Origin: Sulfuricella sp. T08
GTDB lineage: Bacteria > Pseudomonadota > Gammaproteobacteria > Burkholderiales > Sulfuricellaceae
Length of the DNA stretch: 64,000 nucleotides
Direction: 5' to 3'
Assembly (NCBI RefSeq): GCF_000971475.1
Contig: NZ_DF967533.1
Location: 124,001 to 188,000 of the forward strand
Of this stretch, positions 1,172 to 8,012 are shown in pieces. The notes beneath the pieces were generated by a model. It saw nothing but the letters and a program-made list of their open reading frames with translations. It did not search any database and was not told the origin of the DNA. Made by a program: the position numbers and the translations under genes. Within the stretch, counting starts at the first letter, position 1; each line of letters begins with the position of its first letter.

Positions 1172-1947
1172 TAGAAAAGTTTCCTTAACTCATCAATCTG
1201 TTTAAGGCCGATGGCGGCGATTTCTGGGTCTCTGTATTTCCCGAACCAAGTATTGATTGCATCGAGAAATCCAACGCTGTTTTTCATTTGATTGAGCGAA
1301 AGGCCCTTGTGATGTATCAGACAAACCAGCACCGGATGAGAGAAATGCAAAGCACCATCGTTCAGTATTCCCGTCAGCAGTTTCTCGCTCATGAATGGCC
1401 CGATCGTGAAACGCTTTTCGGTTACGACCAGTTCAAAGCCTTTGAAAGTCGCGTGTGTGCCATAGGTCGATAGGAACTTATATCTTTCACCTCGTCCTTT
1501 TTCCTCGAAACCGTCTCGCTTGTCGAGAACGCCCCGAATTTTGTAGGGCTTGAACTCATCGACCTCGCCATTGCGCCACGCCGCAATACTTTGGGGGCTA
1601 TAATCAAAATAATCGAGTAAGAAGCCAACCTCAACAACATCGCGCAGGAAGGAAACGGATCCCTGGTAATAGCCACTAAGTAGCAATTTCAAAAAACATG
1701 ATCCGGAGTTGAAAAGGCGGATGCCGAGACCGTAGATAACCTGCTCGTCGTCTGACAGTTTTTTGGGTGCATTGACGTGTGCGGCGTGGAGCATATCAAG
1801 GCAGGAATGCATCATCTCCACATGGTCTTTCAGCGATTCACTTGTATTGATGCAGAGCGACGATTCCGTTCGGATGCGCTCCTCTTCCCCATGAAGACCT
1901 TGGAGGTTTTCTGGAAGATATGGCGTGATAATCAGGCTGTCCGTCAT
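1171..1947 (-). CDS. Unknown protein encoded between hsdS and the TIR genes
   Basis: A 258-residue soluble protein whose start overlaps the hsdS stop by 4 bases (ATGA) and whose stop overlaps the next TIR start. No catalytic motif is evident. The middle is helical with many aromatic and aliphatic residues (around FNSGSCFLKLLLSGYYQG, residues ~78-95) and a later HFSHPVLVCLIHH segment (~200-212). The helical centre recalls HEPN/DUF5677-like proteins, but I cannot confirm the HEPN R-x4-6-H motif. The strict coupling to hsdS and the TIR genes suggests a role in the same defence operon, as sensor, regulator or effector. Function unknown. Confidence 0.7.
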   Translation of the reverse strand: MTDSLIITPYLPENLQGLHGEEERIRTESSLCINTSESLKDHVEMMHSCLDMLHAAHVNAPKKLSDDEQVIYGLGIRLFNSGSCFLKLLLSGYYQGSVSFLRDVVEVGFLLDYFDYSPQSIAAWRNGEVDEFKPYKIRGVLDKRDGFEEKGRGERYKFLSTYGTHATFKGFELVVTEKRFTIGPFMSEKLLTGILNDGALHFSHPVLVCLIHHKGLSLNQMKNSVGFLDAINTWFGKYRDPEIAAIGLKQIDELRKLF

Positions 1948-3095
1948 CAGGAAAATACCTGTGCCAGCAAGGCATCAAAGGTGGCTTTGGCCTTGTCGGT
2001 GGCGGTGGATTGTTGGAATTGAATCGCCTGCATGGCCTCTGCATGTTCGGAAAAAATCTCTTGTAATCTCACCGGTGGCAAGGGGAACTGATACTTGAAT
2101 AGTGCCACTCTGTTCAGTTTTGGCATTGATGCGCGCACAGATTCGGCTGTCGCATATTCGGTAAAAGCCTTGCTCAACAGTAGTGATAGCAGAAAGGTCG
2201 GTCGCAGTGTTATGCCACAACGCAGTGGATACATATCTGCACTGCAATAGCCTCCGGTCTGCACCAAGGTCGCCTTCGCCAAATAGGGACGAATCTTTGA
2301 ATAGAGAGCATCGCCCGCATCAAACCAATACTTGCCGCTCTTTGGGAGAACATCACGCACGGTCGGCATGGAGATTAGTTTTCCGCTCATGCTCTCAATT
2401 GAATCGGCCCCAATGCACAACATGTCGGCCTCTGCGGCAAGGTCAGGCGTTCGCACTACGGATGGAATCCCGACATGCTTCCCCAAGGATTCGACCGGCC
2501 ACCCCCTCGGATTCGTCGCCGGGTCGCCGAACATATCGAGAAAAATCCCCGGCACCAGTTCTGCTGCCTTCCGTTCCGCCTCGCGCCGCAGCCGCACGAT
2601 GCCCTCGGCGCGGGAGAGAATATCGACGATGCGGCGTTGTTCGGAGAGTGTAGGAACCTGAACCTGCCAGTTTTCTACTTCCGATTTCCGAATAGACGGC
2701 GGGTTTGAGTCAGAGGCGAAATCGCTGATATTTTTTGCTAAAAAAAGAAAATAGAGAAAGTCTGGTTCAAGTAACTCGGGTTTGGGGATAACCGCCATTA
2801 CGTTGTTATCAGCGCAAGATGGTTGCGTCAGTTGTCGCTTTTTGTTGGTGCCGATTGCAGCGCCAATTTTTGGGAATATGAGAGATCCAGCCGGAAATGC
2901 TTTTGCCCTCAATTTGCCGCGCACTTCGTCCGAGACGCTATTATTCCAGCGTTGGATTTCGCGCTCGTTTCCTGCAAGGTTCATGTCGCTAACTTTGAGG
3001 AATGGAAATACTGCGTCTTGGGTTCCTTGATACTGCAAAGGAAAACCCGCACCAGAATCCACCTTCGCGACATCTGCTAGCCGACACTCCATCAT
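1947..3095 (-). CDS. hsdS: Type I restriction-modification specificity subunit HsdS
   Basis: HsdS chooses the bipartite DNA target of a type I RM complex by pairing two target recognition domains (TRDs) with HsdM and HsdR. The 382-residue protein shows TRD1 (~1-150), a conserved spacer with LSEQRRIVDILSRAE and IFLDMFGDP (~150-190), then TRD2 (~195-350) ending in a helical repeat. TRD1 opens with RLADVAKVDSGAGF, typical of the family. Its start overlaps the hsdM stop by 4 bases, indicating translational coupling, and its stop overlaps the next gene. Length is normal, slightly short. Target sequence cannot be read from the protein. Its surroundings look less GC-rich than the nuo region, in line with transfer. 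Confidence 0.95.
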   Translation of the reverse strand: MMECRLADVAKVDSGAGFPLQYQGTQDAVFPFLKVSDMNLAGNEREIQRWNNSVSDEVRGKLRAKAFPAGSLIFPKIGAAIGTNKKRQLTQPSCADNNVMAVIPKPELLEPDFLYFLFLAKNISDFASDSNPPSIRKSEVENWQVQVPTLSEQRRIVDILSRAEGIVRLRREAERKAAELVPGIFLDMFGDPATNPRGWPVESLGKHVGIPSVVRTPDLAAEADMLCIGADSIESMSGKLISMPTVRDVLPKSGKYWFDAGDALYSKIRPYLAKATLVQTGGYCSADMYPLRCGITLRPTFLLSLLLSKAFTEYATAESVRASMPKLNRVALFKYQFPLPPVRLQEIFSEHAEAMQAIQFQQSTATDKAKATFDALLAQVFS

Positions 3096-4753
3096 GCAGC
3101 CCGCTCCGCCAACACCACACGCAACGCCTCCACCTCTTCCACAATTTCCGCCTCAATCGCTGCCAACTCATCCAGCAACTCGCGCGGGTCGCGGTGCTCA
3201 ACGGCGGCCTGGGACATAGGCCGATAGCGCCCAGCGGAAAGATTGAAGTCGTTGGCACGGATTTCGCCAGCGTCGGCGAACCACCAGTTGTGGGGCCAAG
3301 GCTGCCCCTCGATACGCCCGCACGGCGGGCTACTCGGGGCGAACGGAGCTTTCCAGGTTTGCCACTTAGCCCAATTTTGTTCGCGGCCTTTGTAAGTTTC
3401 TGTCAGCCCCGGTAGGTCGTCTGCCTCGATGGGTGTGTCGTGGTTGGCATCCATTTTGTAGCCGTCGTTGTCGGCATGGAGGAACTGCACTTTTTCAGTG
3501 CTGCCGCCTTTGCGGAAAAACAGCACCGAAGTCTTCACGCCGGAGTAGGGCTGGAATACGCCACCGGGTAGGGACAGCACCGCCTCGACCCGGTTATTCT
3601 CGATCAATTGCCGCCGCAGTTCCTTGTGCGCGGTGGTGGAACCGAATAGCACGCCCTCGGGCACGATCACGCCGCAGCGTCCGCCGGGCCGCAGGCTGTC
3701 CATCATGTATTTCAGGAACAGTAACTCGGTGGCGGTGCTGGTGCCAACCTTCACTTCCTCGACGACTCGATCCTTATCCACCCGACCGGCGAATGGCGGA
3801 TTGGCGAGCACGACATGGAAGCCCTCGGCGGGCAAACCCAGTTCAGCCTTGCGTTCATTGTCCAGGGTGGTGGTCAACACATTGCGCAGCAGGATGCGGA
3901 CATTCACCAGTCCGCGCAGGGTCAGGTTCATGGTGGCGAGCCGCACCATTTTTGGGTCAACATCGTTGCCGAAGAAGGTGGCGGTTTGTAGTGCGGAGAC
4001 CTGTGCCGCCGAGAGTTTGTCGCCCAGGCCGCGCTTCTGCATCTTGCCGTCGAGTTCTGCCTCATGAATCGCGCCAGGCGAGGAGTTCGCCAGCCGGATG
4101 TGATTGTAGGCCGCCACTAAAAAACCCGCCGTGCCCGCTGCCGGGTCGTAGATGGTTTCCCCTACCTTGGGGTCGATGATCTCGACGATGGTGCGGATGA
4201 TGTGGCGTGGCGTGCGGAACTGGCCCAATTCACCTGCCTGCTTGATCTGCCGCAGCACATGCTCGAACAGATCGCCCTTGGTGTCGGCATCCGACTGGTC
4301 GAGCCGCAAGCCATCGACCAGACTAATAACCTGAGTCAGCACGGTCGGCTCGTCGATGGAAAGACGCGCGCCGCTCATAAAATTGTGGGCACCCCGTTCG
4401 CCCAGTTCGGCGACGAAGGCGAACACCTCGTCGCGCACGAATCGCACCAGCGACTCGCCCGATAAACCCTTGGCCCACACTGACCAGCGGAAACGGTCGC
4501 GCGGAATGGTGTCGCCGCTGCCTTGGGCATTGAGCGGATTGCGCAGTTTCCAGTCGCCCTCGAACAGGCTCTCGTAGGGCAGTTTCAGCACCTTGGCTTT
4601 GAGTTTGTTCTCGGTGTCGATGCCCTCGATCAGATAGAAGAAGAACAGGAACGAGAGCTGCTCGGCGTTGCTTACTGGATCAGGATAGCCGCCGCCGAAG
4701 AGGTAGTCGCGTATCTGGTCGATAGACCGCCGCATGTCGGGGGTCAGGGGCAT
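3092..4753 (-). CDS. hsdM: Type I restriction-modification DNA methyltransferase HsdM
   Basis: N6-adenine methyltransferase subunit of the type I complex. The start was set at 4753 (MPLTPDMRRSID) because a good ribosome site (AGGAAAA) precedes it and the family N-terminal helical domain begins there; the open frame continues upstream only through a palindromic repeat. The product is 553 residues with the SAM-binding motif DPAAGTAGF (~203-211) and catalytic NPPF (~318-321). Residues ~469-483 (APFAPSSPPCGRIEG) are encoded by a palindromic repeat of the same family found just upstream, so the element is translated in frame between TRD-contact sequence and the C-terminal helices. hsdS overlaps the 3' end by 4 bases. 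Confidence 0.95.
   Translation of the reverse strand: MPLTPDMRRSIDQIRDYLFGGGYPDPVSNAEQLSFLFFFYLIEGIDTENKLKAKVLKLPYESLFEGDWKLRNPLNAQGSGDTIPRDRFRWSVWAKGLSGESLVRFVRDEVFAFVAELGERGAHNFMSGARLSIDEPTVLTQVISLVDGLRLDQSDADTKGDLFEHVLRQIKQAGELGQFRTPRHIIRTIVEIIDPKVGETIYDPAAGTAGFLVAAYNHIRLANSSPGAIHEAELDGKMQKRGLGDKLSAAQVSALQTATFFGNDVDPKMVRLATMNLTLRGLVNVRILLRNVLTTTLDNERKAELGLPAEGFHVVLANPPFAGRVDKDRVVEEVKVGTSTATELLFLKYMMDSLRPGGRCGVIVPEGVLFGSTTAHKELRRQLIENNRVEAVLSLPGGVFQPYSGVKTSVLFFRKGGSTEKVQFLHADNDGYKMDANHDTPIEADDLPGLTETYKGREQNWAKWQTWKAPFAPSSPPCGRIEGQPWPHNWWFADAGEIRANDFNLSAGRYRPMSQAAVEHRDPRELLDELAAIEAEIVEEVEALRVVLAERAA
3304..3346. repeat. Palindromic repeat (family 1) inside hsdM
   Basis: The core is GCCCGC-ACG-GCGGGC flanked by CTCGATAC on one side and TACTCGGG then CGAACGG on the other. 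It is the same element as the copy at 4787-4829 and related to the array at 4844-4962. Its length and phase preserve the hsdM frame, adding about 14 residues. Confidence 0.8.
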
Positions 4754-4786: not shown

Positions 4787-4829
4787 TCCCTCGATACGCC
4801 CGCTTTGCGGGCTACTCGGGACGAACGGA
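4787..4829. repeat. Palindromic repeat (family 1) just upstream of hsdM
   Basis: Same arrangement as the hsdM-internal copy: CTCGATAC, then GCCCGC-TTT-GCGGGC, then TACTCGGG and CGAACGG. An outer TCCC...GGGA pairing extends the stem. It lies 34 bases upstream of the hsdM start, with the ribosome site between, in inverted orientation to the array at 4844-4962. Confidence 0.8.
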
Positions 4830-4843
4830 GGTGAAGAGGTTGG

Positions 4844-4962
4844 CCATTCGTGGTGAATAGCGCGCACCGCGCATAATTACAACCGTTCATGGTGAGTAGC
4901 GCGCACCGCGCATAGTTACAACCGTTCGTGGTGAGTAGCGCGCATCGCGCGTGTATCGAACC
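4844..4962. repeat. Three tandem 39-bp copies of a palindromic repeat abutting the GIY-YIG gene
   Basis: Units begin at 4844, 4883 and 4922, each starting CC(A/G)TTC(G/A)TGGTGA and carrying a GCGCGCA(C/T)CGCGC palindrome. The third unit is the most complete: CCGTTCGT, GGTGAGTAG, CGCGC-ATC-GCGCG, TGTATCGAACC. Compared with the hsdM copies, CGTTCG, GAGTAG and GTATCGA are shared while the stems differ on both sides (GGT...ACC against TCCC...GGGA), i.e. compensatory change. The array begins immediately after the GIY-YIG stop codon. It is not CRISPR: there are no spacers. Confidence 0.85.
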
Positions 4963-4963
4963 A

Positions 4964-5263
4964 TCATCCCAACTTCTTCTTCGTGAAATCTTTTTTCGCC
5001 AACTGGGATACCCTCCCCCAATCGCTCTGCATCATGGCTTCCTTCTTTTTCCGGCTCCAACCCTTGATCTGCAATTCCGCAGCCAAGGCTTCTTCGCGGG
5101 TGGCACATTCCTGTGACCACGCAAGCTCGACCGGCAAACGTTCCGCCGTGTATCCGCCACATGCGCCGGTTTGATGTTCACCCAAGCGTTTTTCAAGGTT
5201 ATCGGTGTGCCCTGTGTAGTAAGAACCGTCAGCGCAGCGAAGGATGTAAATCCAGAATATCAT
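4964..5263 (-). CDS. Small GIY-YIG nuclease domain protein
   Basis: A 99-residue protein consisting of one GIY-YIG domain: the two signature strands appear as IYIL (residues 4-7) and YYTG (15-18), followed by the Arg-containing helix NLEKRLGEHQTG and a basic C-terminus (GWSRKKKEAMM, KKDFTKKKLG). The start at 5263 was chosen because ATGA overlaps the hsdR stop, implying coupled translation, and because it gives the standard N-terminus. Single-domain GIY-YIG proteins include the YhbQ/UPF0213 group, and some are reported to cut single-stranded DNA at genome repeats. The gene is inserted between hsdR and hsdM and its stop touches the repeat array at 4844-4962, so a repeat-directed nuclease is a reasonable inference, but activity is unproven. 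Confidence 0.88.
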   Translation of the reverse strand: MIFWIYILRCADGSYYTGHTDNLEKRLGEHQTGACGGYTAERLPVELAWSQECATREEALAAELQIKGWSRKKKEAMMQSDWGRVSQLAKKDFTKKKLG

Positions 5264-7413
5264 TGCATCAACCCGCATCGGCCATCACGGCTTGAAATAT
5301 CTGGCGACTCCGACTTTTCATGGCCGAAAACGGCGGCGTTGAGGCTGTCGATCAGGGCTTCGAGGCGTTCCTCGCCGCCGAAGACACGCACCGCCTGCGG
5401 GTAGCCGCCCAACTGCGAAAAAGGATGGAAAGCGAAGTGGCCGGTGCTGAATTCGTCCATGCTTCCGGCGTTAGCACGCAACTGGCTGCCTATCATGCGC
5501 AACCAACTTTCCTCGCCGGGGTTGATGTCCTCCCGTGCTAGCAGCCATGCCTCGAAGCGGGTGCCCAGTTCGGCGGCTTTCTGTTCCGATGCTTCGGGGA
5601 AAACCATGTTGCCGTTTTCGTCGATGCTGATCCACTCCCGTGTTGTCGGGTCGATGTGGTCGTCAATGTCCAGTGCCAGCAGGCGGCGCGGCTCGTATTT
5701 CTTCTTGGATGGTGTCTTGGCAACGATCACTCCACCCTCGGCCATCGGGTCGTCGTCGCCGTGGTAGTCGCACACGCCAGTGAAGTCGAACATGGTGAAG
5801 ACGGGTTTACCTGTTGCCTTGCGCGTGCCACGCCCGCGCATCTGCTGGTAGAGGATGGTTGAGCGGGTGAAGCGGGCGAAAATCAGGCTGACTACCTCGG
5901 GGCAGTCGAAGCCGGTGTCGAGCATGTTCACTGAAACCAGAATCTTGGGGAACGGCTCTTTCTTGAAGCGGCGTATTTTGCTCATGCCGTCGAGGGTATC
6001 GTCGCTGCCCATACCGGAGACTACATAATCCGCATAGCGGATCTCAGGCGAGGGTTTCAGATCGGCAAACTGGGCATCGAAGAGTTGGGCCAGTGTCTCG
6101 GCGTGCCGCTTGTTGACGGCGAAGACGATGGTTTTGCCGAACAGGGGTTTGCGTTGCACGCCCTTGCTGTCGATGAAGCCGTTGTCCAGCACTTGGCGGA
6201 ATTCGCGCACGATGGCACGGTTACGTTCTGGAATGGTGAAACGGCGTTCCAGTGCGGAAGGATCAACCACCAGGGAGTCTATGCCCTGAAACAGTTTCTC
6301 GAACTCGATGCGGGTGTCGGTGTCCATTGATGGCCAGTCCAACTCATCGCGCTTGACCTCGAAACCACCCTCGGCAGCAGTCTTGACGGTCTGGGCCTTG
6401 TAAATCTGATACGGGGCGAGATAGCCCTCGCGGATCGCGTCTTTGAGTTTATAGGAGAAGGTGGGCTTCTCGACCTCGAAGAAGCGCAGGGTGTCGCGCA
6501 CGAACAGCGTGTCTTCCTCGTCGCTGTTCGGGTCATCCAGATCGGCAACGCAAGGCGTGGCGGTGAGGCCGACCTGTGTGCCGTCAAAGTGCAGCAGCAC
6601 TTTTTTCCATTGGCCGTAGATGCTGCGGTGGCACTCGTCACTGATGACCAGATCGAAGTAGCCCGGCGAGTAGTCAGCGTAGATGTTCACCATGGATTGC
6701 AGCGTGGTGATGGTGATTTGCTTTTCGTCCTGGAATCGCCGCCCGGCCCGCAGCACATAGGCCGGATAATCCGGCAGGTGCTCGGCGAAGGCGTCCTCGG
6801 TCTGTTTGGCGAGCGGGATGCGATCTACCAGAAACAACACGCGGGTGATGGCGTTGGCCTCGAACAGCCGTTTGATGAAGGCGGCAGCAGTGCGCGTCTT
6901 GCCGGTGCCGGTCGCCATTTCGACCAGGAGTTTACGCCGCCCCTGTTCGATCTCATGGCAAAGGGTGTCGATACACTCGATCTGGTAATCGCGCTCGACG
7001 ATACGGGTATCTATGTTGACGGTGAGCGGATCACGACGCAGCAGACGGGTAGCGAAACGGCGTTCGAGGTCGTCCTGTTTGAAGAAAGTCTTGACCGGGT
7101 GGGGAAAGGCTTCGCGTTCCCACTCCCAAAACCGCACTTCATCACCATTGGTGAGGAATATATAGGGCACGCCCAGTTGGCGGGCGTAACCCTTGGCCTG
7201 TTCGGCGGCATCGCCCGGGCTGATAGAGAAGCGCTTTGCCTCGATGACGGCCATGGAGCGGCCATGACGGTCGCACAGCACATAGTCGGCGCGAGTACCA
7301 TCCTCTACAAACACTTCATAGCGGACGCTGTTCTGGTCTTGGGTATTCCAGCCCTGGCTGGCAAGTTGGGCGTCGATGAGGACGCGTGAGAAGGCTTCGT
7401 TGGTTTTTGTCAT
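5260..7413 (-). CDS. hsdR: Type I restriction endonuclease subunit HsdR
   Basis: ATP-dependent translocase and nuclease of the type I system, EcoEI-like by size. From the start at 7413 (MTKTNEAF) it has 717 residues. The N-terminal nuclease domain shows ADYVLCDRHG then VIEAKRFS (Asp ~43, Glu-x-Lys ~58-60), a PD-(D/E)xK pattern. Helicase motifs follow: ATGTGKT (~167-173), DECH (~259-262), LTATP, and a C-terminal helicase half with QQMRGRGTRK. No strong ribosome site precedes 7413; an upstream ATG at 7467 is in frame but adds 18 atypical residues. It ends overlapping the GIY-YIG gene. All key motifs are present, so the enzyme should be active. Confidence 0.95.
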   Translation of the reverse strand: MTKTNEAFSRVLIDAQLASQGWNTQDQNSVRYEVFVEDGTRADYVLCDRHGRSMAVIEAKRFSISPGDAAEQAKGYARQLGVPYIFLTNGDEVRFWEWEREAFPHPVKTFFKQDDLERRFATRLLRRDPLTVNIDTRIVERDYQIECIDTLCHEIEQGRRKLLVEMATGTGKTRTAAAFIKRLFEANAITRVLFLVDRIPLAKQTEDAFAEHLPDYPAYVLRAGRRFQDEKQITITTLQSMVNIYADYSPGYFDLVISDECHRSIYGQWKKVLLHFDGTQVGLTATPCVADLDDPNSDEEDTLFVRDTLRFFEVEKPTFSYKLKDAIREGYLAPYQIYKAQTVKTAAEGGFEVKRDELDWPSMDTDTRIEFEKLFQGIDSLVVDPSALERRFTIPERNRAIVREFRQVLDNGFIDSKGVQRKPLFGKTIVFAVNKRHAETLAQLFDAQFADLKPSPEIRYADYVVSGMGSDDTLDGMSKIRRFKKEPFPKILVSVNMLDTGFDCPEVVSLIFARFTRSTILYQQMRGRGTRKATGKPVFTMFDFTGVCDYHGDDDPMAEGGVIVAKTPSKKKYEPRRLLALDIDDHIDPTTREWISIDENGNMVFPEASEQKAAELGTRFEAWLLAREDINPGEESWLRMIGSQLRANAGSMDEFSTGHFAFHPFSQLGGYPQAVRVFGGEERLEALIDSLNAAVFGHEKSESPDISSRDGRCGLMQ

Positions 7414-7454
7414 GATGGGCGCTGCCCGGTTTATCCGCATCGGCAACCCACATT

Positions 7455-8012
7455 CTATGACACCCACCTATTTTCGACAATTTTCTCTGCCCAGAACAGG
7501 CCGATGATGGTCTTCACGTCGCTGATGCGCCCGTCACGCACCCATTCCATCGCGGTGTCCAGCGGCAACTGAACGTTCTCCAGGAACTCGTCCTCGTCGC
7601 GGCAGTGGCCGTGCTCACTCAATCCTTGCGCCAGATAGATCAGTATCCGCTCGTCCGAATAGCCGATGCAGGGGTGGATGGTTGTCAGGAATCGCCACGT
7701 CTCTGCAGCATAGCCGGTTTCCTCCATAAGCTCGCGCTGGCCGCAGACAAGTACGTCCTCACCGGAATCGATTTTGCCGGCAGGTAGCTCATGGAACTCG
7801 CGGCCCACCGGATAGCGGAACTGCCGTACCATCAGCACATCACCATTATCCAGCACTGGAACCACCACCACCGCGCCAGGATGGACGATGTACTCGCGCG
7901 TGGTGGTATTGCCGTTGGGTAACATCACCTGGTCCTCCCGCACATGCAGTAGGCGGCCGTCGTAGACGTTGCTGGTGGACAACTGTTTTTCGGTTAAATC
8001 AGGGGCATCCAT
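7455..8012 (-). CDS. Nudix hydrolase, ADP-ribose pyrophosphatase-like
   Basis: A 185-residue Nudix protein that likely hydrolyses ADP-ribose or related nucleoside diphosphate sugars. The Nudix box is complete: GKIDSGED followed by RELMEETGY (G-x5-E-x7-RE-x2-EE-x-G). The preceding FRYPVGREFHELPAGK segment is typical of NudF-type ADP-ribose pyrophosphatases. The start at 8012 (MDAPDLTEK) is preferred to 8087, which adds 25 residues without family character. It lies between nuoN and the RM island. Its possible link to TIR chemistry (ADP-ribose is a TIR product) is tempting, but a Nudix gene after nuoN is common in betaproteobacteria, so it is more likely housekeeping. Confidence 0.88.
   Translation of the reverse strand: MDAPDLTEKQLSTSNVYDGRLLHVREDQVMLPNGNTTTREYIVHPGAVVVVPVLDNGDVLMVRQFRYPVGREFHELPAGKIDSGEDVLVCGQRELMEETGYAAETWRFLTTIHPCIGYSDERILIYLAQGLSEHGHCRDEDEFLENVQLPLDTAMEWVRDGRISDVKTIIGLFWAEKIVENRWVS

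Follow-up and report, generated by a model that had tools for sequence, protein, structure and literature searches.

A small GIY-YIG nuclease gene of Sulfuricella sp. T08 and the palindromic repeats that adjoin it probably form a cognate nuclease-hairpin pair (we put the probability at roughly 0.7), which would act like the Ssn nucleases and behave as a small mobile module, with the type I restriction operon as one landing site. The reading builds on several direct observations, namely the linkage of gene and repeats among relatives, a covarying hairpin stem, conserved residues of catalytic type, the presence or absence of the unit at two sites, and differing hairpins beside paralogous nucleases. 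Most of the relatives examined have hairpins of matching design next to the gene, which makes the enzyme and its repeats look like movable partners that co-evolve. The window (the whole stretch of 64,000 nucleotides that was analysed) holds the following features in this region.

1947..3095, minus strand: hsdS, type I specificity subunit
3092..4753, minus strand: hsdM, type I methyltransferase subunit, its start set by relatives
about 3302..3349, minus strand: hairpin element lying in frame in hsdM, of the same family as the array and the inverted unit
4787..4829, minus strand: inverted single hairpin unit, CCGTTCG-TCCC-GAGTA-GCCCGC..GCGGGC-GTA-TCGA-GGGA
4844..4960, plus strand: three tandem direct units of 39 nt, the third keeping the full hairpin scheme
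4964..5263, minus strand: gene for a single-domain GIY-YIG nuclease (99 aa when started at the ATG overlapping the hsdR stop)
5260..7467, minus strand: hsdR, type I restriction subunit, its stop overlapping the nuclease start

As an earlier note on this DNA had described, the operon contains a 99-residue, single-domain GIY-YIG gene that begins in the hsdR stop (overlap ATGA, 5260-5263); taken from its first ATG, the open reading frame spans 4964-5278 on the minus strand (104 aa). GIY-YIG (PF01541, E 1.7e-19, 70.4 bits against a curated cut-off of 22.6) was the only Pfam match of the encoded protein at E ≤ 0.001, so that it does not class as a Y1 HUH transposase, and no NCBIfam or PADLOC model matched at the limits used. 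By sequence, its nearest relatives of solved structure are two members of UPF0213 (PDB 1zg2 and 1ywl). Among 24 aligned sequences Y11, Y21, R31 and E68 are invariant and H35 is conserved in at least 90%; we take these to be the catalytic-type positions of GIY-YIG enzymes. The nuclease stop codon occupies 4964-4966 and is adjoined by the end of the repeat array at 4960-4962. Since hsdM starts at the ATG at 4753, both the array and the inverted unit are placed between the nuclease and hsdM. The order hsdR-GIY-YIG-repeats-hsdM is common to five loci, the window and four others (L015, L016, L017 and L018, with L015 and L095 counted as one record at 100% identity over 2372 bases), which bears out the earlier description of a module inside a restriction operon. 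Beside this operon, positions 164-1171 hold two adjoining TIR-domain genes, one of them matching ThsB_TIR, and the TIR genes and the type I operon are likely a defence cluster; a 258-aa open reading frame near the TIR genes (1171-1947) matched nothing in Pfam, NCBIfam or PADLOC within the limits applied.

The array consists of units at 4844-4882, 4883-4921 and 4922-4960, with 100, 90 and 77% identity to the first, and TRF gave a period of 39, 2.7 copies and a score of 180, in agreement with the earlier report of three 39-nt units by the nuclease stop. The further claim of a single palindrome family stands with one qualification: the inverted relative is real (4787-4829) and, like the third array unit, displays the scheme in full, but units one and two have lost TCGA and do not satisfy the strict pattern. 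The family can be written CGTTCG-aaaa-GAG-tip-TCGA-a'a'a'a', with TA-hairpin-GTA as the tip in the window, where three copies only keep the full scheme, namely the third array unit, the inverted unit and the element within hsdM. The genome has a single such array, and about ten more family members, mostly inverted pairs, were found in stretches fetched from elsewhere in it. The 13-nt core of the repeat gave 30 matches in this genome against 46 for the reversed pattern, i.e. no overall enrichment, and the longer canonical pattern was therefore used here; its short-tip form has seven exact copies, often in inverted pairs, against none for the reversed control, and there are variant copies besides. 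Single units fold modestly better than shuffles, which is weak evidence, coming as it does from single-sequence folding (array units were matched by 18-31 of 200 shuffles and the two other units by 8 and 10 of 200), and the case for a hairpin structure is made by covariation among relatives. An Rfam search returned a single match up to E 0.5, to mir-275, which at 20.6 bits is under the cut-off of 56 and was taken as chance. Neither a hairpin nor the core was matched in the 7 kb stretch that holds the genome's second GIY-YIG gene (42% identity).

Relatives of the nuclease were gathered by protein sequence alone and the best 80 of 263 were kept. Of these best 80, 77 carry the core, CGTTCGNNNNGAG, at no more than 500 bp from the gene and 3 carry the reversed pattern there, a difference which argues that the link between gene and repeat is not a matter of local chance. 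In the same set the density of the core was 2.27/kb near the gene and 0.14/kb farther out. Whole-genome density was counted for the genomes of 40 of the 80 loci, and from it 1.3 core copies would be expected near the gene and 8.6 at 0.5-5 kb, against 115 and 46 seen. The earlier note had suggested that the nuclease and the repeat family may belong together and had proposed asking whether repeat copies cluster near GIY-YIG homologues; the 77 of 80, the nearly 90-fold local excess and the strict hairpin near relatives (below) uphold both. Across whole genomes the core is commoner than the reversed control in 31 of the 40 nuclease-bearing genomes and not commoner in 9, and with these nine and our own genome showing no core excess, dispersal of the repeat is often weak. 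In a test for a viral origin seven stretches matched a pattern, none of them encoding a relative, and such an origin is unsupported.

The repeats beside different relatives share a common scheme, which runs NNN[TC]GAG, then a tip that varies, then TCGA, and closes with bases complementary to the first four; the tip is a short CYTG, CGAAG, or an extra hairpin (such as GGTG..GCC, GGAG..GTC or GTAG..GTA). We report a strict form with Watson-Crick stems, at no more than 500 bp from the gene, because the loose hairpin pattern also matched coding sequence. This strict hairpin was present at 73 of the best 80 of 263 relatives, at 24 of 29 loci of a phylum sample (398 proteobacterial genomes, 36 of which matched; window's own locus excluded; 40-62% identity), at 10 of 10 second copies and at 3 of 5 plasmid loci (5 of 27 plasmid records were fetched), against 1/80, 1/29, 0/10 and 0/5 for the reversed control. 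Near distant homologues of the order sample (at most 46% identity) it was found in 2 of 24, with none for the control. Altogether 112 of 124 relatives have a strict hairpin within 500 bp and 12 do not, and it occurs in 29 of 32 clusters at 70% identity (the window, L169 and L180 were left out before clustering, the latter two giving no clear gene reading in the segment used). The stem is immediately preceded by TCG or TCA in 280 of 325 hairpins.

Covariation was examined in a set chosen without regard to complementarity (CGTTCG....GAG[CT][CT]TGTCGA...., 119 copies from 51 loci). Stems were fully complementary in 106 of the 119 copies, whereas 1000 shuffles averaged 33 and reached at most 47; only 16 different arm pairs, of which 7 are complementary, underlie these copies, and the figure therefore comes from few and related sequences. 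A stem that covaries while TCR, GAG and TCGA stay fixed is what one would expect selection to leave if a protein read both the structure and the sequence of single-stranded DNA. At L099 (1279-1900), with a nuclease at 49% identity, the adjoining repeats are of the GTTCCCTGAGCGAAGTCGAAGGG and CCGTTGGCTGAGCGAAGCCG types and have no CGTTCG core; a search with this nuclease found one further relative (L137) in 274 genomes, with no repeat visible by eye in 2.2 kb. On a Methylobacterium plasmid (L142, 1501-1792), a frame-shifted relative of the nuclease is still flanked by two hairpins.

The type of hairpin follows the nuclease lineage to some degree. When the tip types of 97 labelled loci were mapped onto a rapidly built tree of nuclease segments, 15 changes were required, against a mean of 29 and a minimum of 26 in 300 shuffles (L169, L180, L142, L172, L170 and L164 were left out beforehand), although this signal across taxa is confounded by ancestry, and in the sphingomonad family alone the 5 changes are no better than shuffles (mean 7.0, minimum 4). 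Comparison of paralogues within a genome is a cleaner contrast than tree parsimony. Nine genomes with at least two nuclease copies were examined, and in eight of these hairpins lie beside at least two copies: the types differ in six (G640, G626, G754, G449, G708 and G443) and the tip type is the same in two (G452 and G728). The CGAAG type goes with one nuclease clade (L152, L174, L177 and L178) in four of the six genomes, and L139 has this type outside that clade.

Repeats also occur without the nuclease. In a sample of 120 genomes of the order, the canonical repeat was present in 20 and a close nuclease (E ≤ 1e-30) in 5, all five of which are repeat-positive. The earlier note had counted repeats in genomes without a GIY-YIG homologue, at the same density, as evidence against a pairing, and such genomes were found in part: 15 of the 20 repeat-positive genomes are without a close homologue and 6 of these without any match at E ≤ 1e-5, among them G049, whose 71 canonical copies are the highest count. 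Since 15 of 20 lack it, the nuclease is not needed to keep the repeats and may not have spread them; in such genomes the nuclease may have been lost, another factor may move the repeats, or they may be kept for other reasons. Contigs C1 of G049 and G038 carry 71 and 46 canonical hairpins and no close relative of the nuclease, and several of the hairpins in the stretches read are inverted pairs between genes.

We considered whether the hairpins could be ordinary dispersed intergenic elements, REP- or terminator-like, that owe their movement to something else (a RAYT/Y1 transposase, for instance), with the nuclease merely settling in repeat-rich intergenic spots. The many repeats far from any close nuclease, including the inverted intergenic pairs in G049 and G038, would fit this explanation, as would the higher share of genomes with Y1_Tnp among those that have the repeat (17 of 20, compared with 60 of the 100 others). 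However, the repeat-positive genomes G026, G036 and G074 have no Y1_Tnp match, which speaks against a Y1 transposase as a necessary partner, and in our own genome the four listed Y1 places (of nine counted) are on contigs C7 and C78, apart from all of its listed repeats. Chance settling does not account for a local excess of nearly 90-fold, nor for the differing hairpins of paralogues, and we regard this explanation as unlikely.

Presence and absence of the unit could be followed at two sites, the first being the restriction operon itself. The orthologous operon is found at 4 of the best 80 of 263 relatives (HsdM-like sequence occurs in the fetched flanks of 12 of the 80, these 4 included), and a search of 274 genomes of the class turned up three further operons (HsdM identity 65-81%) in which hsdM comes straight after hsdR with no nuclease between. 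Two of these (L135 and L136) gave neither a core nor a strict hairpin match in the stretch; in the third (L134) the core matches twice, both times outside the space between hsdR and hsdM and once in native coding sequence of hsdM, and its one strict hairpin match looks like chance. Elsewhere relatives are located at nrdR/methyltransferase, at rnc/era (L141, no hairpins) and at further sites. A tie to restriction-modification defence, suggested earlier, is accordingly not supported as a general one, given unrelated sites such as nrdR and the three operons without the gene. That the nuclease is a type I restriction accessory (an extra effector or control gene) beside which the repeats are incidental is in our judgement the least probable of the explanations weighed: the ATGA overlap with hsdR and the gene order kept in the window and in L015 to L018 are what it would lead one to expect, but linkage to hsd genes is not consistent, as seen from the 4 of 80, the three operons and the relatives at nrdR, rnc/era and other places. 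A distant GIY-YIG gene in genome G038 (L124, 1945-2454; 33% identity, no CGTTCGNNNTGAG in the stretch) is also flanked by hsdM-like and hsdS-like open reading frames, named by eye from sequence; this arrangement would favour the accessory explanation, and it also raises the possibility that small GIY-YIG genes enter type I operons repeatedly.

The second site, nrdR/RNA methyltransferase, was followed in the family of G640, where nrdR was present in 55 genomes and 30 loci were read. The nuclease is present in 6 of the 30, with hairpins in all six, and different genomes carry different hairpin types at this same site. At the 24 nuclease-free loci the methyltransferase lies within 126 bp in 19 and at 834 bp in one, and was not found within the stretch in four. 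One nuclease-free locus (L196) retains a solo hairpin, as after loss of the unit; a hairpin match at L192 falls in coding sequence and was taken as chance. At 115 loci 300 bp or more could be read on each side; of these, 70 have hairpins on both sides, 33 on one side and 12 on neither, and the nearest hairpin is inward-facing in 57 of 78 cases upstream and 66 of 95 downstream (L180 was left out before this orientation count). In 16 pairwise comparisons of related loci by eye, some pairs differ by unit-size, repeat-containing inserts, and no clean target-site duplication was seen.

Repeats have also entered hsdM. HsdM of the window has 553 residues, against 540 in the same-operon relatives L016 and L017, and the difference of 13 residues coincides with the in-frame repeat; L018 shares this insertion and carries additional repeats. 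Core matches within hsdM number 4 in L018, 5 in L015 (whose hsdM was read in part, some stretches being N), 0 in L016 and 1 in L017, the last, judged by position, probably being native coding sequence. In L018 (5467-7347) and L015 (from 5578), the in-frame repeats translate to peptides such as PVRPELVEG. A restriction operon can thus host a module whose repeats become peptide insertions in its own methyltransferase. These copies bear on another explanation, in which the hairpins regulate expression of the nuclease or the operon through termination or mRNA stability and arose by local duplication without the nuclease. The tandem 39-nt array and the unit-sized differences between close relatives do resemble local duplication, but in-frame hsdM copies and dispersed copies are hard to account for in this way, as are differing hairpin types among genomes at one nrdR site, and we hold such a purely regulatory origin to be very improbable.

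We return to a cognate pair that moves as a module. Its gene product would be a small GIY-YIG endonuclease with the cognate site 5'-TCR-NNN[TC]-GAG-(tip)-TCGA-(complement)-3'. The hairpin would form while DNA is single-stranded, during replication, transfer or uptake, and we infer that the nuclease binds it there and nicks it. Such cleavage may in turn drive the gain of repeats or of the module, in that repair or transfer of the nicked ends would copy hairpins or the whole unit to new places, mostly close by. The module, comprising the nuclease and flanking, mostly inward-facing hairpins over a few hundred bp, would enter intergenic spaces (here that of hsdR/hsdM) and co-diversify with its hairpin, and single hairpins would scatter nearby, the in-frame hsdM copy included.

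Dispersed hairpins with a GAG...TCGA core are present in many of the proteobacterial genomes examined, and no assigned mobiliser for them was found in the literature, as far as it was accessible. We advance, as a tentative proposal that may well prove too broad, that this clade of small GIY-YIG proteins is the trans-acting partner of a very large, so far ownerless class of hairpins of the above scheme in alpha-, beta- and gammaproteobacteria, a nuclease-based counterpart of the REPtron in which each lineage would recognise and multiply its own hairpin via single-stranded DNA and enter operons, type I restriction systems among them, as a unit. If each nuclease lineage does recognise its own hairpin, the repeats would gain a candidate partner and specificity could be read from paired sequences; the lineages would also provide a set of orthogonal, structure-specific single-strand nucleases to test. 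In the portion of the literature that could be consulted, no description was found of the nuclease-hairpin pairing, the common scheme, its covariation with lineage or the unit-like presence in operons, and the Ssn work may already contain part of the present findings.

Among known systems, the UPF0213/YhbQ-like GIY-YIG proteins (PDB 1zg2 and 1ywl) are related in sequence and of similar size, about 100 aa, but 22 of the 24 distant homologues in the order sample (at most 46% identity) have no strict hairpin within 500 bp. GIY-YIG homing endonucleases are encoded by mobile passenger genes that lie by their likely target, and the present gene likewise behaves as a mobile passenger beside a likely target; unlike theirs, that target would be the element's own hairpin family, and the locus shows no recognisable intron, intein or homing site in a host gene. 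REPtrons consist of RAYT (TnpA-REP) transposases with REP/BIME palindromes, and here, too, inverted hairpins lie on either side of the gene and others, single or in pairs, are scattered over the genome; the encoded protein, however, belongs to the GIY-YIG nucleases instead of the Y1 HUH transposases, and three repeat-positive genomes have no Y1_Tnp match. Ssn of Neisseria meningitidis and its homologues (Nat Commun, 2025) are reportedly site-specific GIY-YIG nucleases that cut single-stranded DNA at their own repeats; Ssn is said to be a single-domain GIY-YIG protein tied to a short, many-copy genomic repeat, with many homologues having cognate sequences of their own. The likeness, drawn from anatomy, lies in a single-domain GIY-YIG protein with an associated dispersed repeat, which is found here too, with modest dispersal in our own genome. 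In contrast to Ssn, the element described here is defined comparatively, as a covarying GAG/TCGA hairpin, its gene resides in a type I restriction-modification operon, and it displays unit-like presence and absence together with in-frame copies in hsdM.
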